A stretch of DNA of 64,000 bases from Pseudomonas sp. GD04019 (GTDB lineage Bacteria > Pseudomonadota > Gammaproteobacteria > Pseudomonadales > Pseudomonadaceae): assembly GCF_029837695.1 (NCBI RefSeq), contig NZ_JAOEEA010000003.1, positions 310,001 through 374,000 on the forward strand. Reading direction: 5' to 3'. The position numbers and the translations under genes were made by a program. Under the pieces are notes generated by a model that made no database searches, was not told the DNA's origin, and saw only the letters and a program-made list of their open reading frames with translations. Numbering within the stretch: the first letter of the stretch is position 1; every line of letters begins with the position of its first letter. Of this stretch, positions 48,463-62,409 are shown one piece after another.

Positions 48463-49266
48463 TCAGAACGGCTCATCGTCCTCCGGTTCCTGGCCGCCCT
48501 TACGCTTTCGCTCCCGTGATTTGATCTTGGCCTGGGCCGCCAAGCTACTGTGTTGCAGGCGATAGGACTCGTTACCGGTTTCGACGATGTGGCAGTGGTG
48601 GGTCAGCCGATCCAGCAGGGCGGTGGTCATCTTGGCGTCGCCGAACACGCTCGACCATTCGGCGAAGCTCAGGTTGGTGGTGATCACCACGCTGGTGTGT
48701 TCGTACAGCTTGGACAGCAGGTGAAACAGCAACGCACCGCCAGCCTGGCTGAACGGCAGATAACCCAGTTCGTCGAGGATGACCAGATCCATGCGCAGCA
48801 GTGCCTGGGCGATCCGCCCGGCTTTGCCGTCGTGTTTTTCGCGCTCCAGCAGATTGACCAGATCGACCGTGGAGTAGAAGCGCACGCGCTTACCGTGCCG
48901 GGTGATGCCGGACACGGCCAGCGCGGTGGCTAGGTGGGTTTTACCGGTGCCTGGCCCACCGATCAGCACCACGTTCTGCGCGGTGTCGGTAAAGGCCAGG
49001 CTGGCCAGCTCGCTGATCAGGCGTGCGTCGGCGCTAGAGGCGTTGAAATCGAAGCTGGCCAGATCGCGGTGCATCGGCAGCTTGGCCATGTTCATCTGGT
49101 GGCTCACCGAGCGCATGGCGCGATCTGTGTGCTCTTGTTCCAGCAGGTGTTCGAGCAGCCACTTGGATGAGGCTGTGTTCGACTCACCCTGTGCAGTTAA
49201 CTCCGCCCAGGCCGTGGCCATGCCGTGCAGGCGCAGTTCCTTGAGTTCCGCCATCAAATCACGCAT
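48463..49266 (-). CDS. istB: IstB-like ATP-binding transposition protein
   Basis: This 267-aa AAA+ protein has Walker [18 protein letters not shown] and Walker [17 protein letters not shown]. It helps the IstA transposase of IS21 elements choose targets. It starts inside the istA 3' end with an eight-base overlap. The length is normal, so the gene looks intact although its partner is truncated. Confidence 0.93.
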
Positions 49267-49768
49267 GACCGATCTCCTTGGTCTGGCCACGCAGGCGGTC
49301 GTAGCGCGCCGTGTTGGCGACGGGGGCTTCCTTGAGCGACAAGTGGGTTTCGACGCTGGGCGGCGGTTCGGATGCTGTCAGCCGTGCCACGACATTGAGG
49401 ATGTGTTCGGCGCTCAGGCTGCCGCTTTCCAGTACCAGCTCAACAGCCACCAGCACCGCATCGAGCCCGGCGACCGGTACGGCAGCCAGAACTTGCGCCA
49501 TGATCCGGTCACCGCCGGCATGACGCCCCAGACCGTGCTTAAGCTGACGCAGCGGCGCCGGCAGATCAGCAAAGGGCGCGCCGTTGCGCAGCGCACCGGG
49601 CTTGCGTTCGATCAGCGGGAGGTAGTGCTGCCAGTCATAGCTGACCTGGTCGCGATCCAGCAAGCGGACATGGCTGGCGATCAGCGCGTCGTCAGCCACC
49701 ACCTCGATTCGCGTCGGATACAAACGGCTGCTGACCCACTTATGCCCGTTGTGCTGACCTCGATGCAT
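49259..49768 (-). pseudogene. istA: IstA transposase C-terminal remnant
   Basis: The frame contains the C-terminal part of IstA (WVSSRLYPTRIEVVADDALI, HYLPLIERKPGALRNGAPF, ending [16 protein letters not shown]). The catalytic DDE domain is absent. It stays in frame with the upstream rsmN-like start, so a 208-residue fusion could be made. Confidence 0.8.
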
Positions 49769-49885
49769 GTGGATGGTGATGCCATCGCGCAGTAGCAGCG
49801 CGAGTAGTTTCTCAGTGTCGACGCCGGGGTCGATGGTGAGGCGGATGGTCTCGCCTTCGCGGCGAGTGACGGTCAGAAATCCCAT
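49769..49885 (-). pseudogene. 5' part of an RsmN/CsrA-type regulator gene
   Basis: The first 39 residues (MGFLTVTRREGETIRLTIDP, then EKLLALLLRDGITIH) match the N-terminus of Pseudomonas RsmN/RsmF (MGFLILSRREGEGITLSL and QLREGGIRI as I remember it). The C-terminal half with the RNA-binding Arg is replaced by IstA sequence. A ribosome site (AAAAGGA) precedes the ATG. The island therefore once carried a CsrA-family translational regulator. Confidence 0.7.
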
Positions 49886-49990
49886 GGCGAAATCCTTTTC
49901 CGGTTGGGGAATGTGCGTCCTGCGCGAGCAGTCTAGAACAGGAAGACGAGCACCAAATGTGCAGCTGCGCGCAGCTCGAGGAGGTAGTCG

Positions 49991-50425
49991 ATGTGCGGAG
50001 GTGTTGAGGCCCGCGAGGCTGAGAAGGTCTGGAAAATCTACTTCCCCAATCCCAAGGCAGCCCTACCAGTGCTTCTGGAAGGCTCCGGCCAGCTCGATTG
50101 GATTCAGTGGGGCCGGCGCAAGGAAGAGCCTGGCGAAGGTCCACCTGGTGGCTGGGCAAGGCTCAGCACTGTGCAGGCCGGCGGGTGGGCCAAGTATCGG
50201 CCGCGGCAAGGGCTGGCAATGGTGCAGCGCTTCATGGAGAAGGACGGTCATCCGGGCGACAAGAACCGACAGTCCCACTGGTTCGATGTGCCGGAGGGCT
50301 CCGCTTTGGAGTGCTTGGTCATTGGGGAGGGCGAGCAGCGCCGGGTGTATATCGTGACTACCAACGCACCGGCTGAGTACACCTGGATTCATGATCGATG
50401 GCCGCTTCTCGCAGGTAGCTGCTAG
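49991..50425 (+). CDS. Divergent SRAP (YedK/HMCES-like) domain protein
   Basis: This 144-aa protein starts MCGG, placing a Cys at position 2 as in SRAP proteins, which crosslink abasic sites in single-stranded DNA. Other SRAP-like blocks are PVLLEGSGQLDWIQWGRR, QSHWFDVPEG and VTTNAPAEYTWIHDRWPLL (compare the IHDRMP motif). It is shorter than the usual 210-230 residues. A strong GAGGAGG ribosome site precedes it. It is divergent from the rsmN remnant. Confidence 0.7.
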   Translation: MCGGVEAREAEKVWKIYFPNPKAALPVLLEGSGQLDWIQWGRRKEEPGEGPPGGWARLSTVQAGGWAKYRPRQGLAMVQRFMEKDGHPGDKNRQSHWFDVPEGSALECLVIGEGEQRRVYIVTTNAPAEYTWIHDRWPLLAGSC

Positions 50426-50985
50426 CCCTTGGGTATCGCTCCGAGCGACAAGGTGACTGGGCAGTCAGTGACATTATGAATTTTCGCATAATTCCACATA
50501 ATTCTCATGATGAGGCTTCGATTGCCAGGACTCCTGGCTTGCGCGGTGATTAATTGTCGATTCTCCTGGTTATGCGCTCGTTCCTGTCCTCCTGCGACTT
50601 TATAGAGAATTATTCCAGGGCGATAATTATTGGCCTGGAATAATTCTCTATAAAAGGCTGGGGCAACCGGTTGATCACCTATCGGCCTTGCCCATGGCGG
50701 ATCATGTTGTGTGGAGAGAGCTAATGCGGGGCGATGCCACGCGGCAGCTACCGGCTGTCGGTTAAAGCTGAGATTGTCCCTTCTCGATTTCGCCGAGTAC
50801 TCTATCGCCCCTTGCAACGGCTCGAGCTCGATTAATCTGAGCGTCTCTAGTGAGAGCAGGATCACTGAAGGCTCAGCCGTTGAGCGCATCAGCTATAGTC
50901 GCCTAAAGGCAGTTGGTCAGGAGACTCACTTCCGAATGAATCCGTCTGACAAGCTGGGCGACCATTTAGAACATTGGAGATTGGG
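50426..50985. other. Intergenic region with a long perfect inverted repeat
   Basis: No convincing gene; a 155-codon minus frame has random composition and spans the inverted repeat. The region holds several ATAATTC motifs and a 21-bp inverted repeat (listed separately), upstream of the Panacea toxin-antitoxin pair. Confidence 0.5.
50599..50654. repeat. 21-bp perfect inverted repeat with 14-base spacer
   Basis: TTTATAGAGAATTATTCCAG plus G at 50599-50619 is exactly mirrored at 50634-50654. The AT-rich arms could be a regulator or recombinase binding site or a strong cruciform. ATAATTC also occurs twice near 50480-50510. Confidence 0.8.
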
Positions 50986-51471
50986 ATGACAAAGCCTGTT
51001 GCCGTCGCAAACTGGTTTGTGAACAACCTAAGCGACCATGCGGCTGGCGAGGTCGTAACGCATCTGCAGGTGCAGAAGCTTCTCTACTTCGCGCAAGCTT
51101 GGCATTTGATGGCCTTAGATCGGCCATTGTTTGATGAAGACATGCAAGCATGGCCTCATGGTCCGGTAGTACCTTCCGTTTGGCACGAATTTAAGCGCTA
51201 CGGCTGGCAACCGATCGTACCTGGTGGCGCATCCGAAGGTATTGATGCGGACTCTCTTAATATATTGGAGCAGGTTCGCGATGCTTACGGCTCATTTGCT
51301 GCCAAGAAGCTTGAAGCTATGACTCACTCCGAGCGTCCTTGGATCAGCGCCCGCGGCGGCCGCGACCCTGAGGAGCGTTGCGAGGAAGTGATTTCAAAGG
51401 ACTCAATTCTTAGCTTCTATAAGGAGGTTTACGGGGAGTTGGAAGATGGTGAAGAAACTACCCAAGGATAA
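50986..51471 (+). CDS. Panacea-domain antitoxin (PanA/SocA/GepA family)
   Basis: This 161-aa protein has the Panacea pattern: MTKPVAVANWFVNNL, THLQVQKLLYFAQAWHLMAL, and FDEDMQAWPHGPVVPSVWHE. Panacea antitoxins neutralise very different toxins encoded beside them (PanAT systems). The downstream gene overlaps its 3' end by 26 bases and is the probable toxin. Confidence 0.85.
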   Translation: MTKPVAVANWFVNNLSDHAAGEVVTHLQVQKLLYFAQAWHLMALDRPLFDEDMQAWPHGPVVPSVWHEFKRYGWQPIVPGGASEGIDADSLNILEQVRDAYGSFAAKKLEAMTHSERPWISARGGRDPEERCEEVISKDSILSFYKEVYGELEDGEETTQG

Positions 51472-51934
51472 AATACACCAGCAAGCACAGTCCGCTAGCA
51501 AGCTATCTCCCATTGAAGAGAAAGTCTTTTCTCTTAATAACACAATGAACGGCGGCTCGGCTGACAATGAAAACCCATTTGTCACACTAAAATATTTTTG
51601 CAACGCCTTTGAGTGCTTTTCTGCATGGGAGAAAGATGAGCTCAAAAGTTTCAGCGACTTTATTTCTGCGCTTCGCGATCGAACCTGGCGCCAGGTTTTA
51701 GAAACCAGCGGGAAAGGCGATAACAAAGCCGGTTTAGCCTATACGCAGTACGATATAGCCACTATAAAAAATGGCGCCGAAGAACATCTGAAGAGAGTGC
51801 GAAAGCAGATCGGAGACGACATCACATTCTTCGAACTACGAGTGAACCAAAAAATGCGCGTTCATGGTTTTCGAGCAAAAGCCGCATTCTTTTTAGTTCT
51901 ACTGGATCGCGAGCATCGAGTTTTTCCTTCCTGA
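51446..51934 (+). CDS. Probable Panacea-associated toxin
   Basis: This 162-aa protein starts MVKKLPKDKIHQQAQSASKL and ends KMRVHGFRAKAAFFLVLLD followed by REHRVFPS. The ending resembles small toxins with a closing LDRxHRVxP motif. I do not recognise a named family with certainty. The 26-base overlap with the Panacea antitoxin gene and its AT-rich sequence support its being the toxin half of a PanAT pair. Confidence 0.65.
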   Translation: MVKKLPKDKIHQQAQSASKLSPIEEKVFSLNNTMNGGSADNENPFVTLKYFCNAFECFSAWEKDELKSFSDFISALRDRTWRQVLETSGKGDNKAGLAYTQYDIATIKNGAEEHLKRVRKQIGDDITFFELRVNQKMRVHGFRAKAAFFLVLLDREHRVFPS

Positions 51935-52038
51935 GCCAAACCGCCAAGTGGCAGGTTTTCTCTACCACGCTTTCTCTAAGCGTAGAGTTCTATCGGTATA
52001 GCATTCGTTCTGACCAACCGCCGCTCGCAGCAGCTAGT

Positions 52039-52065
52039 AAAAAGCCAGGCAATACCTGGCTTTTT
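52039..52065. terminator. Bidirectional terminator
   Basis: AAAAAGCCAGG/CCTGGCTTTTT around a five-base loop, with A and T tracts on both sides. It lies between the convergent toxin and mvaT-like genes. Confidence 0.88.
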
Positions 52066-52083
52066 CATCCAACGAGATAGGCC

Positions 52084-52449
52084 CTACTGCAACCAGCCTT
52101 GAACCTTCGCAGCCCCGTACTTGTCTTTCCAAGCCTTCAGCACTTTATTGTTGCCGCCTTTGGTTTCTACAATCTCGCCAGTTTCTTCGTTTTTGTAAAC
52201 TTTGAGCTGGCGCTGACGGCGGTTTCCTCTAGTGGTAGGAACAGGTGTTGCTCCAAGAGAGCAGGCCTGCGGATCGAGCAGAGCAATGATTCCCTTCAGG
52301 CCAAATCCATATTCAGCCATCAATTCGCGAAGCTTCTCCTCAAACTCAATCTCTCGCTTAAGTCCATCGTCATTTTTCAGCTCATTTAGCTGTTTAAGTT
52401 GGGCGGCGAGTTGGGCTTCAAGTGCCTTGAATTCAGCAAGTTTGGACAT
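52084..52449 (-). CDS. MvaT-family H-NS-like silencer
   Basis: This 121-aa protein has an N-terminal oligomerisation coiled coil (MSKLAEFKALEAQLAAQLKQ) and a C-terminal DNA-binding part (ETKGGNNKVLKAWKDKYGAA). Both are typical of Pseudomonas MvaT/MvaU/TurB. Such proteins coat AT-rich foreign DNA. An island-borne copy could silence the island itself or mix with the host paralogs. Confidence 0.9.
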   Translation of the reverse strand: MSKLAEFKALEAQLAAQLKQLNELKNDDGLKREIEFEEKLRELMAEYGFGLKGIIALLDPQACSLGATPVPTTRGNRRQRQLKVYKNEETGEIVETKGGNNKVLKAWKDKYGAAKVQGWLQ

Positions 52450-52577
52450 ACATCGGCCTTTTCTAAGGAATGGCTGGGGAGCACCACTCTACTTGGAGGC
52501 TGGTTTTGGTGAAAGATGTCATAAGGTCAGACCTAGCGTTGCCGCCAAGAGCCATCCCGCGAGAGCGCTCGAGGAGT

Positions 52578-53378
52578 TCAGAAAAGGCGTTGCCAGTCCC
52601 TGTTAGCGAGCTCTCTACACACTTCAGGGGCGCCACCAAAGCATCGCCTCGATACGCTCATCATTTGCGCCACGGAGTGGTATGTGACCGGTAATCCATC
52701 CTGGTTCAGAAGCACACCATTTGCGCCTGTCAAAAGAGCATGGCCGGCTACGACATCATGCGCGCCCACCGATACAAGGGACGCACCTGCGATTGCATCA
52801 CCGACGGCAACTCGTGCTAACCGATAGGCAATGCTTGGCATGGGACAACAATTAGCGGGCGAACATAACTCTGCATTCAGGTCAGCTTTACTACCTGCAG
52901 CTGTACTCATCAGAACCTGGCTACCAGACGTTAGTGGCCCACGTTGCAACCCTGAAAGAACTTCCTCCCCATTGCGAATGACGCGGGAGCATCCTTCCGC
53001 CCAAGCAATGCAATCAGGACCACGGTCGACCGTGATCGGCGCATAGACCACGCCAAGAACCGGCCTAGAACCACGCAGTAGCCCGACAGAAATAGCTGAT
53101 CCCTGTCGCCCGAGCAGGAAATCTCTAGTCCCGTCGTTGGGATCAACAACCCAACAGTATTCATGCCCAGAAAGGTGATAGCCGGTTTCCTCTCCCCAGA
53201 AATCGCAGCCCAGCAGTTCAAGCAAGCTTTTGCGTAGAAGTACTTCGATCTCTGTGTCCACGCTTGCTTTATCCCCCGAGCCCCTGGGCCCACCTGAGCG
53301 CTTCCACTCAGCAGCCAGCAGTTTGCCAGCCAACTGCACGCACTTGGTAACTGGGGCTAGTAACTCGACGCAGCTCAT
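52578..53378 (-). CDS. CysQ/inositol-monophosphatase-like phosphatase
   Basis: This 266-aa protein belongs to the lithium-sensitive phosphatase superfamily. Metal-site motifs are visible: CDFWGEETGYHL (GEE), WVVDPNDGTRDFLLGRQG (DPxDGTxxF) and VGAHDVVAGHALL in the place of WDxAAG. Family members hydrolyse 3'-phosphoadenosine 5'-phosphate or inositol phosphates. The chromosomal cysQ normally lies elsewhere. Here the gene follows the helicase by 51 bases behind a GGAGG site, so it is part of the candidate defence operon. The substrate is unknown and might be a nucleotide signal. Confidence 0.85.
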   Translation of the reverse strand: MSCVELLAPVTKCVQLAGKLLAAEWKRSGGPRGSGDKASVDTEIEVLLRKSLLELLGCDFWGEETGYHLSGHEYCWVVDPNDGTRDFLLGRQGSAISVGLLRGSRPVLGVVYAPITVDRGPDCIAWAEGCSRVIRNGEEVLSGLQRGPLTSGSQVLMSTAAGSKADLNAELCSPANCCPMPSIAYRLARVAVGDAIAGASLVSVGAHDVVAGHALLTGANGVLLNQDGLPVTYHSVAQMMSVSRRCFGGAPEVCRELANRDWQRLF

Positions 53379-53429
53379 ACAAGCCTCCAAAAGCAAGAAG
53401 TTAGTGCCCCACAAGCCTCAGATGAAGAC

Positions 53430-54818
53430 TTAGAAAAGCGCTAACAACTGATAGTGATAGCGCTGTGAGAAACTCAGTCGGTAGAGCGAAGTGGAATCGG
53501 AGTCGCTCGGGGAAAGCCCCAACGAGAACCCGCAAATTGATGGCGCAGCATCATCGCTCGACGGGCACCTCAACTCGTAGCTTGGTGCCAGCTCGCTGAT
53601 CAGATCTTCGACTATGTCAGGCGGAGCATGCACCCGACTGAGAATGGCTAAATCTTCGGGCAGGTCATCAGCCACTCGTTGAGAGAACCCTTCAAGGGTC
53701 GACTCTGCCAACACATACAACCAAGCCTGGTCATCAGCCGCTCCAGTTCGACGCAAAACACGCCCTAACACCTGGCGGTAATGCAACTCCGTGCGAATAC
53801 GGCTGAGGTAGCAACAAACCTGCAATCGGGGGATATCTGTCCCTTCGCTGATCATCCCCACAGCTACGATCCAACGAGAAGCGCCATGCCTGAACTCGTT
53901 AATTCCATCCTGAGCACGTTTATCTCTGTTGGTCACGATTCGGCATGATTCACCCCTAGCCTCAAGTGCCAGCGCTACTTGGTGCGCATGCTCAACATCA
54001 GTGGCAACCACCAGACCGCCTGCATCCGGCTTAACCTTTCTGAGGTCATCGAGTTTTGCGATCGCAAGACCGAGCATCTGACTGATGATTTCAGGGTTCC
54101 GAAGCAGCTCCTCATAGGAAACCGGGGACTCACAGAGCAACTGATTAAAACTAGGGAAAAGTCGTACTGGGTTGTCACCACTGGACTCCTCCGTCAGCTT
54201 CACAGAGTGATTGTCCAGCAGCACGATGCGAGGGGCGCGACAAACATTATCTGAAATGGCCTCGCGGAGCCCGTAGCGGTAGTCGCAGACTAATCGACCT
54301 TCTGCTGTCGAATAGCGAGCCAGTGCAATGCCCTTATCATCGGAACGCCAAGGCGTCCCTGAGAGCGCCAAGGTGAAGGCTGCCTGATCCTGGACGTTCT
54401 GGATGATTTGCTGGCCCCAAGCATTGCTCAGAAGGAGATCATGACCGGCGCAATGATGAATCTCATCGAAAATAGCCAACACTCGATAGTTTTCTAGGAG
54501 CGCCCAGAAAGCTTCATCCTGGTAGTCCATTGCCTGATAGGTACAAGCAGCTCCCACAGCACCAATGAGACCATCAAGGCGCCTACCCAAGACCTTGGAA
54601 AAGGTAGATCGGAAACCTTCGACGACTTGGCACGAGGGTGCGAAACAGAGCACAAGATCGATCTTGTCCAGCTGGAGCAAGCGATTGGCAAGCTCTGCAG
54701 CCATCCAAGTCTTTCCAGCCCCAGGCGTAGCCTGACAGAAGAAGTGCGGCGCAACAGCGTACCGTTCTAGGGCAGCATCAATGCATCGACGCTGCCATTC
54801 TCTTAGCGTCGACTTCAT
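53430..54818 (-). CDS. SF2 DEAD/DEAH-type helicase
   Basis: This 462-aa protein has Walker A QATPGAGKTWMAAEL at about residues 29-43, a DEIH box (LAIFDEIHHCAGHD), motif III LALSGTPWRSDD and motif VI YRQVLGRVLRRTG. The helicase core fills most of the protein. The C-terminal 80 residues are unlike known nucleases. It resembles the helicase part of type III restriction or similar defence proteins. The start overlaps the upstream gene stop in ATGA. Confidence 0.88.
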   Translation of the reverse strand: MKSTLREWQRRCIDAALERYAVAPHFFCQATPGAGKTWMAAELANRLLQLDKIDLVLCFAPSCQVVEGFRSTFSKVLGRRLDGLIGAVGAACTYQAMDYQDEAFWALLENYRVLAIFDEIHHCAGHDLLLSNAWGQQIIQNVQDQAAFTLALSGTPWRSDDKGIALARYSTAEGRLVCDYRYGLREAISDNVCRAPRIVLLDNHSVKLTEESSGDNPVRLFPSFNQLLCESPVSYEELLRNPEIISQMLGLAIAKLDDLRKVKPDAGGLVVATDVEHAHQVALALEARGESCRIVTNRDKRAQDGINEFRHGASRWIVAVGMISEGTDIPRLQVCCYLSRIRTELHYRQVLGRVLRRTGAADDQAWLYVLAESTLEGFSQRVADDLPEDLAILSRVHAPPDIVEDLISELAPSYELRCPSSDDAAPSICGFSLGLSPSDSDSTSLYRLSFSQRYHYQLLALF

Positions 54819-55399
54819 GCTTTGGGTGCGAAGGTCTTTAGAGTTTTCTCGACCGCTCGAAGGTGCCCAAGAAGCCGAGAGCTTCGATCTCGCGCGTCGA
54901 AATATTCCACTTCAACCCTAGGCTTTAGGTGGGGCATGTCATCAAGGAGTTGCTTGTACCGCTCCGTTTCGCCCATCGACGTCAGAAAGTCGAGGCGAAT
55001 TTCCTTCTGCAGTGATTCCAAATGCTCTAGTACGTCTGCCTCCGTGACGGAAGGGGACACCGAAGCTGAACTCCCAACCTGTGGTAACTCCAGCAGTGGA
55101 GGAGAAGTCGAAGTGAATCTGCCATCCACAAGCTCAAGATCAAGACCTGAAGGGATTGGTCCTAGATGGTAGACCTGACCGCGCTTTCGTCGCACTTCGT
55201 CGTAGGTAACCCAGCCCACGCGCAGCATCCGTCGAATCTGCTCATACACGTAATAACGAACTTCCGTGATGTCAAAGCTCACGCTGCCTAAGCACTGGGC
55301 GTAGGCGTCACGCAGATCACGAGTCGTAAATTTCGCGAACCTATCCTGCTGCAGCAGCTGGTACAGCCGACTATCGAAAGTGAATGAATCCGATTTCAT
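54815..55399 (-). CDS. Winged-helix-like partner of the helicase, unknown family
   Basis: This 194-aa protein starts MKSDSFTFDSRLYQLLQQDR. Residues 10-75 look like a winged helix (YYVYEQIRRMLRVGWVTYDE, then RKRGQVYHLGP). A linker and a helical C-terminus follow (DVLEHLESLQKEIRLDFLTS, LLGHLRAVEKTLKTF). I do not recognise the family. It is the first gene of the helicase-phosphatase operon and overlaps the helicase. It may sense DNA or guide the helicase. Confidence 0.7.
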   Translation of the reverse strand: MKSDSFTFDSRLYQLLQQDRFAKFTTRDLRDAYAQCLGSVSFDITEVRYYVYEQIRRMLRVGWVTYDEVRRKRGQVYHLGPIPSGLDLELVDGRFTSTSPPLLELPQVGSSASVSPSVTEADVLEHLESLQKEIRLDFLTSMGETERYKQLLDDMPHLKPRVEVEYFDARDRSSRLLGHLRAVEKTLKTFAPKA

Positions 55400-55440
55400 G
55401 CGGGTACCTGGAACGGGTCGCGCGGAACAGCCGAAAATAC

Positions 55441-55468
55441 GGATTATAGTCCGTGGCCGAATAGTCCG
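55441..55468. promoter_or_regulatory. Controller-type operator between the divergent genes
   Basis: ATAGTCCG occurs twice as direct repeats (55446-55453 and 55461-55468). The first is inside a near-palindrome, GGATTATAGTCC. This resembles the C-boxes (GACT...AGTC) bound by controller proteins of restriction-modification systems. The site is 42 bases before the XRE gene and upstream of the helicase operon. Confidence 0.55.
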
Positions 55469-55509
55469 CAAACACAGGATAGTGCCGGCTCACAAGAGCC
55501 GAGGCGGCC

Positions 55510-55725
55510 ATGGGTCAGCTTGCGATCGCATTGGGCAAGTCAATCCGAGCACATAGGAAAGCCAAGGGCATTCCACAGGATGCCCTAGCGTTGGCATGCA
55601 AAATTGATCGGAGCTACATGGGACGTATCGAGCGAGGCGAGGTAAACCTCACTGTTGAAAAGCTGTACAAAATTGCAGAAATACTTCAGTGCGAGCCAGC
55701 GGCACTACTTCCCGCAGTCTTCTGA
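55510..55725 (+). CDS. Small XRE-family controller-type regulator
   Basis: This 71-aa protein is a single helix-turn-helix domain: GKSIRAHRKAKGIPQDALAL, SYMGRIERGEVNLTVEKLYK, IAEILQCEPAALL. The length and sequence resemble C proteins that time expression in restriction-modification systems. It is divergent from the helicase operon, with operator-like repeats between them. Confidence 0.85.
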   Translation: MGQLAIALGKSIRAHRKAKGIPQDALALACKIDRSYMGRIERGEVNLTVEKLYKIAEILQCEPAALLPAVF

Positions 55726-55755
55726 CTCACCACCTAACGCCCTACAGTGAGCCTA

Positions 55756-56211
55756 TTAGGTTTCCTTTGATGGAAGCTTGATCACCTTGGCTGCTTTGCC
55801 TGCTTTCCTGAACAGCGGGGTCTCCTCCAAGAACTCAGCAGGGTCGATATTCTTTCTCCTAGCAATCATCGAGGCGTAGAGCACTCTTTCCCGCTCCCTG
55901 CTCAGCTGCCGGGTTAATTCTTCGACCTGCGCCTTCAGCTTAACGATCTGTTGGTCGTATTCGCGGATCCTGGCAGTTTCCAAAGAAACTACCTGATCAA
56001 AGTACTGCTCTCCTCCTGCGTAGTTCTTTGTCAGGCTTTTAACACGCTGAAACTCGCGGACAAAATCCTTGTTTCGCCAGAGAGTAGGCTTGGATATACC
56101 GCATTTCTCCACCATGTAATTCCAGCAGAAGAGCTCTGGTGAAATCAATTGCCTCTCAAACTGCTGGAGAGTAGAGAAAGCAACATCCCATTGATTAGCA
56201 GATATAGTCAC
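55756..56211 (-). CDS. Small coiled-coil protein of the recombinase operon (TnpC/GmtX-like)
   Basis: This protein of about 151 aa has a helix-turn-helix-like N-terminal part (YMVEKCGISKPTLWRNKDFV) and a coiled coil (RIREYDQQIVKLKAQVEELT). This resembles Tn554 TnpC, an accessory factor for recombination, and fits the role of GmtX in gamma-mobile-trio modules. The GTG at 56211 is preceded by GGGGCGA. A GTG at 56229 would overlap the recombinase gene by 16 bases. Confidence 0.7.
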   Translation of the reverse strand: MTISANQWDVAFSTLQQFERQLISPELFCWNYMVEKCGISKPTLWRNKDFVREFQRVKSLTKNYAGGEQYFDQVVSLETARIREYDQQIVKLKAQVEELTRQLSRERERVLYASMIARRKNIDPAEFLEETPLFRKAGKAAKVIKLPSKET

Positions 56212-56213
56212 TA

Positions 56214-58871
56214 TCAAGTCGCCCCGCACTGAAAGACACAGTCACTCGGGATAGAACCCTCATGAACAAATGGTTGATAGTCTTGACTTTGTTCAACCTG
56301 CTCCTGAGTGAGAACAATATCAGAACGATCCAGTATGTAACTTGCATTTCTGAAAACCGTCATTTGATGCTCAATATGCATCTCAACAGACTCAACCGGA
56401 ACGTCCGGCCTATTAATTGCTTCGAATAACCTGGAAAGCTCATTCTCTGCGCGACTGCGCTCCGCCTCGATCTGCTTTACTTGTATTGGATCAGACATAT
56501 CCACTACAAATTCCCGACAACCTTTCCCAGCATTTCCGGTTAAGCATTTTAGGTGAAACTCACAGGGCTTGAGGTTGATGTCGCGAAAACAATGACCGAG
56601 GGGGCCATAATGAACAGTTTGCAGAGTGTTGTTGAGGTAGCCTTGGATATGCTCATCTGAAACATTAGTCCCAGACCAAGACTTGACCTTATTGGCTAGC
56701 TCACCAATGAACCTAGACTGCTCAGAGAGCATCAATTCACTTACTTTAGCGGCCCGCTCTCGTGGAGTCTGATGATCATAATGATCGCCTTGACTGTCAG
56801 TTCTACCCATCCATTTATTCACGATACTTGCAGCTAAGCCCGCGCGAAAAAGAGAATTGGTTTGCCAATGCCTTCCCTTGTGGCTTTGAAAAGACTTAAT
56901 CAGCTTCTCATCTGCAGCAATGCCATAGCGGAAGAACGCCGAGCGGGCAATATTGGTCGGCTTTATTACATGCAGTACAGCATGATAATCAAAGATGGAA
57001 GGTAAGTATTCATTATACACGCCACCCAGAGAGGCCGGAACCAAGAACAGGTAATCAGATACCTGCTGATTTATTCCAAAGGATGCAGAGCTTATTTGCA
57101 TCCCATCCGCCAAGAATTCTTCCTTAATATCCTCAACTAGCGCCGCAGAAACTCTAGAGTTAATTGAAACAAAAGAGCTCTCCACAGCATCAATAATACT
57201 GCTTTGATCAATTAGAAAGCCATACGCAGCACGATATCTAAGCTCTGATGGCAGAGGTGATGGTCTATAGAAATTTTTTCGCGCACTAGAAAGCTTTAAA
57301 AATGAGTAAAAGCTTCTCTCTGAATCGAGTGCCACTGAGGTCAGTGTCTTCTGGTTAAAAAACTCAGGGAATAACTGCTCAGCATCAAGCACAGGAATGT
57401 ACTTGGCTTTATCATATCCGCCACCCACAACCGTACGCACTGCAAGTAGGGCGTCCGCGCGACTTAGATAGACAGTTCGACGCCCGTGTAAAGAGGGCTC
57501 CCCGGTGAATGCAAAACATTCAAAGGATGACATGATCCAGAGTTTCAATTTATCTTTGAATGCGAAACGATCTTTAGACCCGTTCTTAGCCGGCTGACGG
57601 CCATGGAGGATTTCGAAAACCTCATCGTAAAGCAAAAAGCCGCGCCTTAACTCGACAAGCTCTTTGATGCGCTTCTTAAGATCCCTACCTTGCACATAGT
57701 GAGCGCATTTTTTCTTGCCTAATGGCTTAGAAATCAAATTGAAGCCATTGGCTCTATAGAATTTCAGAAGCGAAGCAGCAGACGTAGAACTCGAAGCAAC
57801 TGGTAGATATTCAGCAAGATTCTTCAGCTCAATCATTTCATCGTCTGAAACGCTTTTCAAAAGATGCAGACGAGATTTTGTGTCGGCGACATTCGAGCGG
57901 ACCTTGCAGTGCAACCTCTCGAGAGCGTTCTGCACTTCGGACTCAATTTTATTTGCTCTTGCGTGGAATCGCTCTTTCAACTCGTCAGCAAAGGAGCCGT
58001 TCTCAATGCTCAAAGCCCGAGCTCTGTAGGGCTGGCAAATATTATTGATGCTATCAACCGCATCGCTGAATGCAGACCGCCATATGGTAGGGACATATCT
58101 AGCAATGGGCTCAGACCCTTTTTCGGTCCAGACCCGGCAATACATTTCTCCGCCTATCTCAACCAAACAATTTTTGGGGAGACGAAGAATTTCACCTATT
58201 CTCAGACCCAATCCAAACTGAAAGACCTGAGTTAAAACTGCAAGATAATCAATTTGCGCTCTAAGGCTCCCATCCCACTGCGTCTTGATAGCCCATTTTA
58301 ACGCGATTATTGCCTTAATAAGCTCTGGAAGGGGCAGTTTGTCACCAGCCTCCAAGCGGCCATATTTATCTCTCTCCTCAAGGTCGTGTGCACCAATCAG
58401 ATCGAAGTTCTGCGGTGCCAACCCGGAGTCGAATAAGAAACGAACAAAGTAGTTAATCGCTCTACAAGGACCTGCGGGATATTTGTACCTCGACTGCAAA
58501 AAGCCAAAGGTGCGAAAGTAATAGTCCTGATCTAGGTCTACCAGGGAAGTGGAGCCTTGCGATACGAAATTTTTAATGGGTGAAATCAAATCGCGCACGC
58601 GCGAGAAAGAAACTTGCTTGCTTGAGGCTCGTCTTTCCCATAAATAATTTACAATAAAGACCTTATTCAATAGCGTCAGCTCTTGGCTGCATGAGCCTCT
58701 AGCAAATAAGTTTAATTTTTCCCGCCCCTTATATCTCCAAACATCCTCCTGCCAGGTAGAGCCTTTAAAGACAACAAGCTTTGAAAATTGCACCTCAGCA
58801 CTGCTTGCAAGTTTCTTTAGCTTTAGCAGCAACTCTTCATGCAGGATATCTCTAACCACTTTAACCTGCAT
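56214..58871 (-). CDS. Large tyrosine recombinase (885 aa)
   Basis: Core recombinase residues can be seen: box I Arg in GLGLRIGEILRLPKNC, and box II around SHKGRHWQTNSLFRAGLAAS. The likely nucleophile Tyr follows in GDHYDHQTPRER. Long N-terminal and C-terminal regions surround the core, with several Cys and His late in the protein (HYGPLGHCFRDINLKPCEFH, GNAGKGCREF) that may bind zinc. It is third in an operon of overlapping recombinase genes. The size recalls GmtZ or an enlarged TnpB. Confidence 0.82.
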   Translation of the reverse strand: MQVKVVRDILHEELLLKLKKLASSAEVQFSKLVVFKGSTWQEDVWRYKGREKLNLFARGSCSQELTLLNKVFIVNYLWERRASSKQVSFSRVRDLISPIKNFVSQGSTSLVDLDQDYYFRTFGFLQSRYKYPAGPCRAINYFVRFLFDSGLAPQNFDLIGAHDLEERDKYGRLEAGDKLPLPELIKAIIALKWAIKTQWDGSLRAQIDYLAVLTQVFQFGLGLRIGEILRLPKNCLVEIGGEMYCRVWTEKGSEPIARYVPTIWRSAFSDAVDSINNICQPYRARALSIENGSFADELKERFHARANKIESEVQNALERLHCKVRSNVADTKSRLHLLKSVSDDEMIELKNLAEYLPVASSSTSAASLLKFYRANGFNLISKPLGKKKCAHYVQGRDLKKRIKELVELRRGFLLYDEVFEILHGRQPAKNGSKDRFAFKDKLKLWIMSSFECFAFTGEPSLHGRRTVYLSRADALLAVRTVVGGGYDKAKYIPVLDAEQLFPEFFNQKTLTSVALDSERSFYSFLKLSSARKNFYRPSPLPSELRYRAAYGFLIDQSSIIDAVESSFVSINSRVSAALVEDIKEEFLADGMQISSASFGINQQVSDYLFLVPASLGGVYNEYLPSIFDYHAVLHVIKPTNIARSAFFRYGIAADEKLIKSFQSHKGRHWQTNSLFRAGLAASIVNKWMGRTDSQGDHYDHQTPRERAAKVSELMLSEQSRFIGELANKVKSWSGTNVSDEHIQGYLNNTLQTVHYGPLGHCFRDINLKPCEFHLKCLTGNAGKGCREFVVDMSDPIQVKQIEAERSRAENELSRLFEAINRPDVPVESVEMHIEHQMTVFRNASYILDRSDIVLTQEQVEQSQDYQPFVHEGSIPSDCVFQCGAT

Positions 58872-60475
58872 TAGAATTCCTTAGAATTAATCAGCAAAAC
58901 TTCATTGCCTTCTGAATACGCTATGGCGGCATGACAACCGGCAATTGCCTGGTCAATTACTGACACGACATTGGCTGTACTAATCATAAGTAATTGTTCC
59001 TTTCTCTCTATTAGTCCCTCCAATGCGGCCTCATGCGCTACAGTACTTTTGTTCGGACAAAATCTACTGCAGGAGTAGCAAGTAATGGCTGGCTCCTCAA
59101 AGCAAATCGACTTTGATGCACACTTCCCAATAACATTGAAATTTCTGGGCTCACAAACCTGGCTATATACATTACCCTTGAGCTCACCTTCCTTCATCCA
59201 TGCAGCCGTAAAGTGTTTCTGCTCAATGCGGTTCAGCGTCGCAGCCTCAAGAATTTCCCACATTTCGTGAGTAAAGCGAAAATAATGCTTAATACTACTT
59301 GTGCCTTCATGATCCAAAAGATCAGCTACTTCTTCAGGGGTGCAACCAGACATAACAGCCTGGGTCCCTACCGTGTATCGAAATCTATAAGCACACAAGT
59401 TGAATCTCTTACCGGTTCTAGGCGACAGAGGCAGTCTATGCTCATTACCCCAAAGCATATAATTAATTCGGCATGAAGATTTATGATACTGCACGGACAT
59501 CTTCGCTTCATCCGCGAAATAATCACTCGAAATTCTCTCGTCATCTTCCCAATAGTGACTCCCTCGGGAATTACCGTCGGCCTCTAGATCTATAGCCTTA
59601 GGCGAAATAAATATGGGTAACTCCCCAGGATCGAAACCAATCGGGGTATCGGAAGAATTAATATAAAATTCTAGTAGATTGGCTGTTCTTTCTGAGAGAA
59701 GCCTGGAGCTGAACTTACTTCTTCTTTTAGCAGATCGCTGTTTCACACGCGGAACGTTCAAGTATCGAACGCCAGTTACAACGTCTTTGATGAAGTCTTT
59801 TCGCTTCAGCATAGAAAGCTGAATAGGCCTCAAGCCGAAACACAAACAGAGGTCCAAGATCAGACGAAAAGCTAGCGGGAGCGATTCGTTGTCTACTTGA
59901 GCAGATAGTATGGTGATCTCTTCTTTGCTAAATGGACCTCTTTCCTCATCCATCATAAAGAGAGACAAATACGAATTTTTTCTTCCCGAGTAGTCACGAA
60001 GCCTCATAAAATCTTCGTACTTATCTAGACACAACCATTCATATTCATGCAAGAGAGCGAACCGCAAGAATTCTTTGCAAGTCGAAATAAACTGCTGCCT
60101 ATGTCTTCCGTTTAACGCAGAAACCTCATCAAGGAAGTCATTTAGACTAGTCCCTCTAGTCAACTCTTTAGCAAGCCTGTCGATGAATTTGAATTTATGC
60201 CGGACAGTTGAAGAAAGATTCCGCTCTAAAATATATCGCAAATAGCTTGCAACGATTCCCTTTAAGTCATAATCCAGATAATTTATATACTCAGACCTGA
60301 GATATGTGAACTCACTAGTATCATCGGGAACTATTATTACGTTTCGAAAGTCACCCTTAGAATCAAGTAGCTCAACTCGGTAACCTAGACGACTGCTTAC
60401 GAATCTCTCATTCTCTTGGATATCTGAAATAATTTCAGCAGTAGGTGAAAGGCGTACATCCTTAGCTGAAATCAT
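58871..60475 (-). CDS. Tyrosine recombinase (534 aa)
   Basis: Visible motifs are box I CFGLRPIQLSMLKRKDF and box II AYRFRYTVGTQAVMSGCTPE, then LLDHEGTSSIKHYFRF with the probable catalytic Tyr. Near the C-terminus a Cys-rich segment (ITCYSCSRFCPN) looks like a zinc site. Its ATG overlaps the first recombinase stop (ATGA) and its stop shares one base with the next gene. Confidence 0.85.
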   Translation of the reverse strand: MISAKDVRLSPTAEIISDIQENERFVSSRLGYRVELLDSKGDFRNVIIVPDDTSEFTYLRSEYINYLDYDLKGIVASYLRYILERNLSSTVRHKFKFIDRLAKELTRGTSLNDFLDEVSALNGRHRQQFISTCKEFLRFALLHEYEWLCLDKYEDFMRLRDYSGRKNSYLSLFMMDEERGPFSKEEITILSAQVDNESLPLAFRLILDLCLCFGLRPIQLSMLKRKDFIKDVVTGVRYLNVPRVKQRSAKRRSKFSSRLLSERTANLLEFYINSSDTPIGFDPGELPIFISPKAIDLEADGNSRGSHYWEDDERISSDYFADEAKMSVQYHKSSCRINYMLWGNEHRLPLSPRTGKRFNLCAYRFRYTVGTQAVMSGCTPEEVADLLDHEGTSSIKHYFRFTHEMWEILEAATLNRIEQKHFTAAWMKEGELKGNVYSQVCEPRNFNVIGKCASKSICFEEPAITCYSCSRFCPNKSTVAHEAALEGLIERKEQLLMISTANVVSVIDQAIAGCHAAIAYSEGNEVLLINSKEF

Positions 60476-61701
60476 TGCTTATTTTCCTGCGAACGAAGTA
60501 TCTCCTCCTGTAGAAGAACTTGCAGGCCTGCAACTTTGGCTTGTATTGACCCTCTAGAATAACGGTCAGGCATATCACTGTTTCTAGCCCAGCCTCCCGC
60601 TGCCTCCTGAATAGGCGCCTTCATTATCTTGCGGCTTAATCCACTAGCTCCTTTGAATTTCTTATCCAGCGCTTGATTCAGAAGATCATGAAATGTGTTA
60701 CGTAGGCGGTGGGGGCTTAACAATCCAGAAAACTCAGGGTGCCGCAGGATAAGTTCATTCAATATCGAGTTTGGCGTTTGGACCGACAATGGATTTCCAT
60801 CACGGCATGAAAGAAATAAATAGCTAGATCTCTGCCAGCCTTCGAACTCTTTTCTTACATGGACTATGTAATGCTCAATCAGGGATGCGAAATCATCGTG
60901 TAACTCAACTTGCCGACCATAGGTTTTTACGGACGGAGACTCTGCGCGCGGATAGTTGATTACATCAGTGTTCTTCAATATATCGAAATACTTCCTCCTA
61001 CCCGTAAGCTGAAAATCGTTCAGCTTTAATAGTAGCGTCTCACCCTTTCTATTCCCCGCAAGCATCAGAAGCAGCAGAAATATATAGTTCCGCCACTTCA
61101 CCTTTGACGACTTCCAAGGATTACTCTTATTACTATAATCAGGGTCGATGATAGTTATGAACTTCACCTGCAGCTCAGGAGTAAGGCCAATCTTGTCTTT
61201 CCTGTCGCCCTTGTAAGGAGACTTAAGGTACAGCTTAAATCCTGCGTCCATTCGTTCATATAAACGCTTTGCTGCCTTTAGCTGCTGTATATTTCGCGAA
61301 TACTGCCCCTCGTAAAAGAGCCAAAGGTATTCTAAAAATTTTCTTGCTCCCCGCATTCTAGCGCTATACCAGTTCTCGCCCACTCGCTCCCCGGATTGTA
61401 GGCCGTATCCACAATATGAGGAGAATGACTCAATCTCACCGATAGTGAACGGCACAAGATCCACTATCCGCTGAATCAAATTAATATTCTTGCTCTCGCA
61501 GAACCTATACAGGGCCAGAATTGAATTCTGGTCCACCCTTATTGTGTTAGGTTTCGCACCATTATCGAATCGTTGTAGTGCATATGCTCCGGCAAATAGA
61601 TCAATTTGATCGTTTTCAGCCACGAGCTGGAGTTTGAGCCCACCTAACTTAGTGAACTCAACTTGGACTAATGAATATCGAGAGGGCTTCAAATGACACA
61701 C
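60472..61701 (-). CDS. Tyrosine recombinase (409 aa), first gene of the trio
   Basis: Catalytic motifs are box I LMLAGNRKGETLLLKLNDF, box II SPHRLRNTFHDLLNQAL, and GGWARNSDMPDRYSRGS with the Tyr nucleophile. The start is probably GTG at 61701. It reads away from the HU gene, from the right island end inward, as expected for an integrase beside its attachment site. It is co-transcribed with two further recombinases and the coiled-coil protein. Confidence 0.87.
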   Translation of the reverse strand: MCHLKPSRYSLVQVEFTKLGGLKLQLVAENDQIDLFAGAYALQRFDNGAKPNTIRVDQNSILALYRFCESKNINLIQRIVDLVPFTIGEIESFSSYCGYGLQSGERVGENWYSARMRGARKFLEYLWLFYEGQYSRNIQQLKAAKRLYERMDAGFKLYLKSPYKGDRKDKIGLTPELQVKFITIIDPDYSNKSNPWKSSKVKWRNYIFLLLLMLAGNRKGETLLLKLNDFQLTGRRKYFDILKNTDVINYPRAESPSVKTYGRQVELHDDFASLIEHYIVHVRKEFEGWQRSSYLFLSCRDGNPLSVQTPNSILNELILRHPEFSGLLSPHRLRNTFHDLLNQALDKKFKGASGLSRKIMKAPIQEAAGGWARNSDMPDRYSRGSIQAKVAGLQVLLQEEILRSQENKQ

Positions 61702-61751
61702 CGCACAAGAACGAGCGCGGCAGCCTAGAGGCAGCTAGATGAGGAGTCAAT

Positions 61752-61844
61752 AATGAAACGAATTAACAGCTATACGATCATTTTTTCCGAGATGAAAAAA
61801 ATGAAACACGTTTCAAGCCGCTGTAGAGAATGCATAAAATGAAA
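61752..61844 (-). repeat. Right subterminal recombinase-site-like repeats
   Basis: AAAAAATGAAAC (61796-61807) and ATAAAATGAAA (61834-61844) are exact reverse complements of motifs at the left end (18965 and 19044). A shorter AATGAAACG lies at 61752-61760. The first is extended to the palindrome TGAAACACGTTTCA (61802-61815). Confidence 0.5.
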
Positions 61845-61864
61845 AGCCCCGACTAGCGGGGCTT
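61844..61864 (-). terminator. Terminator of the HU gene supplied by the island
   Basis: The stem AAGCCCCG/CGGGGCTT with a five-base loop is followed on the minus strand by a T tract. It lies 38 bases past the HU stop. It differs from the GC-rich hairpin left at the other island end. Confidence 0.85.
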
Positions 61865-61901
61865 ACAGAGAGTTATCCACAGAAAATGAGATAATCTCTA
61901 T

Positions 61902-62174
61902 TTAATTCACCGCATCGCGCAGGGACTTGCCCGGCTTGAAGGCAACGGTGTTGCTGGCTTTGATCTTGACCGGGGCGCCGGTCTGCGGGTTCTTGCCGGT
62001 ACGGGCACCGCGGTGACGCTGGAGGAAGGTACCGAAACCGACCAGGGTAACGCTGTCCTTGCGGTTCAGCGCGCCGGTGATTTCTTCGAGCACGGCGTTG
62101 AGTACGCGGTTGGCCTGGTCTTTGGTCAGATCAGCCTTCTCGGCAATGGCCGCGGCGAGTTCAGGTTTGCGCAT
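61902..62174 (-). CDS. hupB: DNA-binding protein HU (island target gene)
   Basis: This 90-aa protein is a typical HU: MRKPELAAAIAEKADLTKDQ, the LVGFGTFLQRHRGARTGKNP arm and ASNTVAFKPGKSLRDAVN at the end. It compacts and bends DNA. Its last codons and terminator appear to come from the integrated island. The start ATG is chosen by homology; a longer frame upstream is non-coding. Confidence 0.95.
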   Translation of the reverse strand: MRKPELAAAIAEKADLTKDQANRVLNAVLEEITGALNRKDSVTLVGFGTFLQRHRGARTGKNPQTGAPVKIKASNTVAFKPGKSLRDAVN

Positions 62175-62409
62175 AGATGCCTCTTTGACTGTTTGTTGTT
62201 GTTGTGTGTCCGAGCTGTCCTTCCAGAACAGCGCCAAAGGCGCCGCAACGGCTCTGCGCTGCGGCAGACTCGGGGAGAATGGCACGCCATCCGGGACTGC
62301 GCCAGTGCTGCCGGGCAGTTTGCCCGGCGGCGAATATGGCGAAGCAGACAGAACATCCGCTATTTCCGCCAGAAGCTGATCGTTGCTCCGAATTTTCCGC
62401 AGAAACGCG

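Follow-up and report, generated by a model that had tools for sequence, protein, structure and literature searches.

The stretch of DNA analyzed here, 64,000 nucleotides of contig NZ_JAOEEA010000003.1 from Pseudomonas sp. GD04019 (positions 310,001 to 374,000; hereafter the window, to which coordinates refer), carries the gene of a small XRE-type controller that diverges from a winged-helix gene followed by a superfamily 2 (SF2) helicase gene. The three move together as a single unit, among the cargo genes of unrelated mobile elements and close to known defense genes, and we read them, with a probability of about 0.5, as a conserved, mobile, controller-regulated and as yet unnamed helicase defense module. 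The neighborhood of the genes, the family of the motor and the mode of regulation suggest a role in defense. An initial annotation had proposed a defense operon of three same-strand genes, the third encoding a CysQ-like phosphatase, with a divergent XRE protein of 71 aa as its controller, and all four reading frames are present at 52578–55725.

A Conserved Three-Gene Unit

The controller gene occupies 55510–55725 on the plus strand. Divergent from it on the minus strand, the winged-helix gene (54815–55399; 194 aa, with a C-terminal helical hairpin in its AlphaFold2 model) overlaps by 4 bases the gene of a 462-aa helicase (53430–54818) of the ResIII/XPB/RadD-like kind. ResIII (49.8 bits) and Helicase_C (25.7 bits) both exceed their cut-offs, which bears out the SF2 assignment of the initial annotation. 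The ATG at 55399 is most likely the start of the winged-helix gene, and a database copy of the protein (P0001) starts there. Longer N-termini reading through the control region are listed for some relatives, such as P0019; a start at 55471 is disfavored because the conserved promoter described below would then fall inside the gene.

A profile search of the genome collection with the winged-helix protein returned 86 relatives, and the loci of 80 of them were compared. Among the 79 loci that could be assessed for the helicase gene (L082, at a contig end, was excluded), 78 have it directly behind the winged-helix gene, and in the single miss, L075, the winged-helix gene is broken. For the XRE gene 77 loci could be assessed (L043, L046, and L084, with no upstream DNA, were excluded), and in 76 of them it lies divergently in front of the winged-helix gene; the single miss is L082, although a 37% XRE match was found there. 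Pairwise identities of the three core proteins correlate with one another (0.92, 0.87, and 0.86), for which co-inheritance accounts without contact between the proteins.

Within a sample of the family, 67 of 398 genomes match the winged-helix protein, while a phylum-wide set of 398 genomes holds 7 with a match, 5 of them distant. At these five distant places and on one Vibrio plasmid, all in Gammaproteobacteria, a winged-helix gene is again followed by the gene of a helicase that is 42–51% identical to the helicase of the window, and a small divergent gene, XRE-type where recognized, lies in front in all six. These results support an XRE controller divergent from a winged-helix gene and an SF2 helicase gene as the conserved module, a candidate unit under a controller of the C type. 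Co-occurrence, the check suggested by the initial annotation, thus upholds its grouping for the XRE, winged-helix, and helicase genes; the phosphatase, near the module in 9 of 80 loci, splits off.

No winged-helix relatives were found among 50,697 phage records, and the 32 pattern matches in IMG/VR gave 0 confirmed relatives, so that a phage origin was rejected. Helicase relatives do occur at 22 IMG/VR loci, with best segments at most 35% identical. In the four of these 22 that were read (contigs L178, L179, L182, and L183) the helicases are longer, at 594–613 aa, with an N-terminal part that is HNH-like by eye and no recognized winged-helix partner, and they were set aside as a different family.

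Core Proteins

The AlphaFold2 model of the winged-helix protein (predicted local distance difference test, pLDDT, 80.8; predicted template modeling score, pTM, 0.46) comprises a winged helix at residues 1–91 and a helical hairpin at 120–190. Its top fold matches are PadR proteins, one of them below E 0.001; matches obtained with VIA-align, mostly to the helical hairpins of unrelated proteins, were not used. Neither Pfam, NCBIfam, nor PHROGs gave a family for the protein. In the homologue search its relatives carry the newer Pfam accessions PF27192 and PF27213, which the Pfam scan did not report and of which no mention was found in the literature searched. The hairpin is well conserved among close relatives, and is a candidate surface for contact with a partner.

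The SF2 motifs of the helicase are kept from Pseudomonas to Vibrio across 23 aligned homologues, and its best solved relatives are RadD and XPB. Its structural model is poor (pLDDT 59.7), so the assignment rests on profiles and the fold matches only restate SF2. For the controller (HTH_3, 48.4 bits; PADLOC control protein, 45.9 bits), the closest solved relative is C.AhdI (E 5.5e-10), in agreement with its initial description as a C-protein-type regulator.

The Control Region

All 68 distinct sequences examined between XRE and winged-helix genes contain the palindrome CGGAYTATAATCCG; the distant loci L152, L154, L155, and L156 were set aside from this set, and L151 and L153 were not extracted. 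The palindrome includes a perfect −10 hexamer, TATAAT, read toward the winged-helix gene. Its single match within the window reads CGGACTATAATCCG on the minus strand and lies at 55440–55453, with TATAAT at 55443–55448 as the candidate −10 box of a winged-helix–helicase promoter. A TTTGCGG-like block at constant distance from the palindrome would serve as a weak −35 element, and the leader of the XRE gene holds an inverted repeat of varying sequence. The repeated operators ATAGTCCG of the initial annotation fared less well, since the window holds 2 copies, a number matched by 25 of 100 shuffled sequences, and the second copy is not conserved.

In place of CGGAYTATAATCCG, two distant loci (L155 and L156) carry CTTAG-N5-CTAAG repeats, the site type of C.Csp231I. 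The distant XRE protein borne on a CRISPR-associated transposon (CAST) is close to C.Csp231I itself (E 1.8e-16, one uncharacterized chain scoring slightly better). With two kinds of controller, C.AhdI-like and C.Csp231I-like, in the same position, the class of controller has changed and the layout has stayed. The XRE protein is predicted to bind the palindrome. A different XRE protein, in a Vibrio CAST, reportedly acts as a repressor and autoregulates in the manner of lambda CI (PMC12150760), which offers a parallel only.

Carrier Elements and Cargo Status

Adjoining the controller gene in the window is a four-gene operon on the minus strand (55756–61701) that is laid out like ginABCD, and its genes are named here by layout, order, and sizes. 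The ginD-like gene (55756–56229) encodes a small protein of no confident family, named by position, with 70% identity to its homologue in L007. The large ginC-like protein (56214–58871) has no match in Pfam or NCBIfam and takes its name from gene order and from relatives in gin-like operons. Next come a ginB-like integrase (58871–60475; NF041502, 148.9 bits, short of the cut-off of 350) and a ginA-like tyrosine recombinase (60472–61701; Phage_integrase, 33.1 bits, above the cut-off of 27.1). Integrase-like proteins, a small last gene, and cargo starting behind ginD are thus all found, as expected of a GInt carrier; in the description of these islands in PMC5385486, cargo begins at the ginD end. 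The recombinase module of the initial annotation corresponds to this operon, and the three-gene unit lies where such cargo starts. A gene of about 90 aa adjoining ginA recurs in the window, L007, L010, and L118; the L007 copy belongs to the HU family (117.1 bits) and is perhaps a substitute for a host factor in recombination.

By blastn, 12.6 kb of the window (49741–62321) are 99.6% identical to a locus in another genus (L118), and the block has therefore moved recently. Its left limit is an IS-like (insertion sequence-like) insertion rather than a proven element end. There, at 48463–49885 on the minus strand, the window has an IS-like ATPase gene and a cut-off reading frame with a CsrA/RsmA-like start, both named by reading and not by family search, and the L118 sequence continues differently.

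The same module occurs on other kinds of carrier. It lies behind gin-like operons on annotated plasmids, in one of them with an insertion sequence in between, and beside GmtY, VPA1269, and GmtX in one record, from whose annotation the Gmt names are taken. In Vibrio it is placed between TnsC and TniQ of a Tn7-like element that also has a Cascade gene of type I-F, and L151, named by gene similarity to L156, is a second Tn7-like case; two further plasmids carry it without adjoining mobility genes. The cargo beyond the module is varied: phosphite uptake, Ter proteins, and mercury resistance are represented, and L002 has a DUF499/DUF3780/DUF1156/PLD set with an anti-phage annotation. Mobility genes were scored within 8 kb in 19 of 80 loci, a figure that includes weak similarities of about 22–34% and is not relied on.

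These surroundings give some ground to the chief rival explanation, by which the XRE protein keeps the pair silent in a settled host, entry of an element into a naive cell switches it on, and the helicase then promotes survival, replication, or integration of the new DNA. The module adjoins mobility genes in GInt-like, Gmt, and Tn7-like elements, and its control region has a repressor-type layout. Yet among 13 gin operons assessed, six carry the module, one has a remnant and six are without it. Type-1 GinC was found in 4 of 398 family genomes, with the module beside it in three (G000, G122, and G020) and absent from G307. Type-2 GinC was found in 15 of 398, of which nine were assessed: the module is present in three (G231, G229, and G198) and missing from five (G239, G368, G264, G277, and G223). 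Two hits at contig ends or partial (G171 and G181), a broken one (G282), and three of 28–33% identity (G060, G363, and G275) were left out, and module presence in G231, G229, G198, and G020 rests on coordinates. In the remnant, in G351 (L168), the XRE gene is intact, the winged-helix gene is truncated, and the position of the helicase is taken by a Sir2 gene (L168:4178–4948, plus strand; 168.8 bits). As described in PMC5385486, integration and excision both proceed in a synthetic minimal GInt that carries no cargo. Since such an element moves and six of the 13 operons lack the module, the module is cargo and unnecessary for movement. In addition, a scan for mobility and restriction genes found neither kind within 8 kb in 38 of 80 loci. 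A role in establishment is accordingly an unlikely alternative to defense, if the least unlikely of those considered.

Defense-Gene Neighborhood

In 27 of 80 loci the module has restriction genes or their remnants within 8 kb (hsd genes in 21, type IIG in 6), some of these tags being remnants (L023, L024, L040, L069, and L072). Their arrangements differ: hsdMSR may point at the XRE gene, hsd genes are inverted in L076, a different type I set is found in L065, L073, and L081, and a IIG enzyme may be accompanied by helicase and GIY-YIG genes. The distant copies L151, L152, and L155 likewise have type I genes next to them, the neighbor in L155 being HsdR-like. Such proximity would be expected if the motor and its DNA-binding partner served the adjacent type I or IIG enzymes, with the XRE protein timing expression, and in L152 the XRE gene and hsdMSR do run in the same direction. 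On the other hand, 53 of 80 loci have no scanned restriction genes within this distance, and in L011 and similar loci hsdR points at the XRE gene, which is consequently not upstream of it. An accessory function in restriction is therefore improbable, more so than one in establishment.

Other defense genes are present as well. PADLOC was run on 20 long neighboring proteins from 19 loci, hand-picked and mostly from loci without restriction genes or close gin matches, and recognized GajA (L009 and L034), Avs2 (L018), Drt8 (L026), and mad3 (L051 and L057). In Shewanella I-F3 CASTs, the cargo genes with the strongest enrichment include hipB and ssl2, and type I restriction-modification (RM) is also enriched, as given in a section of PMC12452197; this hipB and ssl2 may be the XRE and helicase genes of the present module. 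No report of the unit was found in the literature searched, that section alone coming close, and in the text of PMC8649781 available on Tn7 cargo 'helicase' appears once, for Gabija. Behind the helicase gene, a small BPSL0761 gene and a DUF6088/AbiEi-like gene recur (L004:8744–9657, L161:3186–4075, and similar loci); the L004 protein scores 179 bits as AbiEi, and the DUF6088 cluster is present in 17 of the clustered loci.

Several observations weigh against a defense role. Among the 20 long neighbors, 14 belong to no clear defense family; among these are a TnsB (L054) and, in L074, a RecD-like protein whose only matches are to candidate systems. The 38 loci free of scanned mobility and restriction genes count here too. 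Restriction genes were found in 24 of 58 long module loci and in 0 of 17 control regions around phosphatase genes (Fisher p 0.0007), but the module loci are related and the figure falls to 8 of 39 when they are grouped at 90% identity, and the controls are 17 of the 20 phosphatase regions treated below (without L118, L120, and L137), three of them of 10–11 kb and not 16 kb; because of this relatedness, the enrichment is only suggestive. PADLOC 2.0 (2023; E 0.01) has no model that matches the winged-helix protein. No nuclease was recognized in the winged-helix protein or the helicase, and a sigma-70 consensus scan of the control region returned no promoter, because the −35 element is weak. Regulation by a controller of this type would, finally, suit an establishment gene just as well.

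The Phosphatase and Other Neighbors in the Window

The phosphatase gene of the window (minus strand) runs from 52578 to 53378 with an ATG start or to 53414 with a TTG start. The 51-base gap to the helicase gene, reported together with the single overlap of 4 bases noted above, holds for the ATG and shrinks to 15 bases for the TTG. The protein belongs to the inositol-monophosphatase superfamily (Inositol_P, 83.1 bits), and its metal-binding motifs are intact by eye. A CysQ identity has to be given up, at 46 bits against the NCBIfam TIGR01331 equivalog cut-off of 228.8, and CysQ/PAP chemistry was rejected on this score and on poor co-occurrence with the module. The score for HisN likewise stays below its cut-off (56.2 bits against 275.15).

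Relatives of the phosphatase occur in 65 of 398 family genomes. They lie within 8 kb of the module in 9 of 80 loci and within 5 kb in 8 of 75 winged-helix places. In 20 phosphatase regions, hand-picked from the best of 91 places, the helicase appears only in L118 and L120, and a gin operon in L137. Both families are present in 31 genomes, above expectation (odds ratio 7.5), an excess that might fit two genes of islands. The phosphatase is a recurrent but separate and optional passenger, not part of the core. As it is neither core nor, by NCBIfam, CysQ, the suggestion that the operon links nucleotide metabolism or removal of a PAP signal to DNA sensing loses its basis.

An MvaT/MvaU-family silencer gene (52084–52449, minus strand; 166.6 bits, cut-off 75) adjoins the phosphatase gene, and the same gene cluster recurs around phosphatase genes in L121, L123, L131, and L133. 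At 50974–51934 (plus strand) a Panacea/SocA-domain gene (75.6 bits) precedes a MAG6450-family gene (40.0 bits, at the cut-off; NsnC in PADLOC, 32.7 bits). The two are likely a toxin–antitoxin or defense-type pair and lie inside the block shared with L118.

Relation to Known Systems

Hachiman, which pairs the nuclease HamA with the helicase HamB, resembles the module in having two proteins, one an SF2-type helicase, and in suspected DNA surveillance (PMC12278908). It differs in the partner protein, which in the module is of the winged-helix type with no recognized nuclease, and no Ham model in PADLOC matched the helicase. RM systems with C proteins (C.AhdI and C.Csp231I) share the XRE controller type, the divergent layout, and a palindrome over the promoter, whereas the genes controlled here encode a DNA-binding protein and a helicase instead of a methyltransferase and an endonuclease, and RM genes are optional neighbors.

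With RadD, XPB, and PbeA/DndF-like helicases there is an SF2 core in common (RadD 40.1, PbeA 49.6, and dnd_restrict_1 35.4 bits), but the helicase falls far under the cut-offs (720 for RadD NF053632; 600 for dnd_restrict_1). None of the other nine local proteins, in a PADLOC scan of ten, matched a Pbe or Dnd partner. That a DNA-repair or stress gene pair rides islands by chance is the least probable explanation: RadD and XPB are the nearest solved relatives and 9 of 80 loci have umuC-like genes within 8 kb, yet the RadD score is remote from its cut-off, occurrence is patchy (67 of 398 family genomes), and the umuC-like genes are unspecific, since 2 of 19 phosphatase regions have them nearby as well.

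The carrier in the window agrees with GInt islands as the description in PMC5385486 has them, with a ginABCD-like operon and cargo beginning behind ginD; the main text of that paper contains neither 'helicase' nor 'XRE'. The Shewanella I-F3 CAST cargo combines, as here, an XRE-type regulator and a COG1061-type helicase with type I RM, and the divergent copy of the trio found here in a Vibrio CAST parallels it; the section of PMC12452197 concerned names no unit and no winged-helix partner.

Proposed Mechanism and Significance

If the module is a defense system, a switch resembling those of CI and C proteins can be envisaged, in which the XRE protein would bind the palindrome, repress the winged-helix–helicase promoter, and may stimulate its own. 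The pair would then be expressed when the DNA enters a cell without the XRE protein, or when the level of this protein falls. The winged-helix subunit would bind DNA and its conserved hairpin could load or hold the SF2 motor, which might travel on foreign DNA and either block its replication or expose it to a nuclease, for example that of a neighboring restriction system.

A wider version of the defense reading is more tentative, and we consider it doubtful as it stands: GInt-like, Gmt, and CRISPR-targeting Tn7-like elements as well as restriction islands would each have acquired the same immune module, with an exchangeable C-protein switch, as a weapon of element against element. Such a weapon would consist of a winged-helix-guided motor, turned on at entry, directed at rival DNA in the new cell, and working without modification, CRISPR, or a recognizable nuclease.

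The unit to clone is now the XRE gene, the winged-helix gene, and the helicase gene, to the exclusion of the phosphatase. Present in 67 of 398 genomes of the family and carried on GInt-like, Gmt, and Tn7-like elements, the module is nevertheless nameless in the libraries searched. If it does act in defense, it would add a helicase system in which a DNA-binding partner and a controller switch replace the nuclease. The module also opens to testing the general question of why mobile elements of unrelated kinds retain a single gene pair in the cargo slot adjacent to their recombinases.

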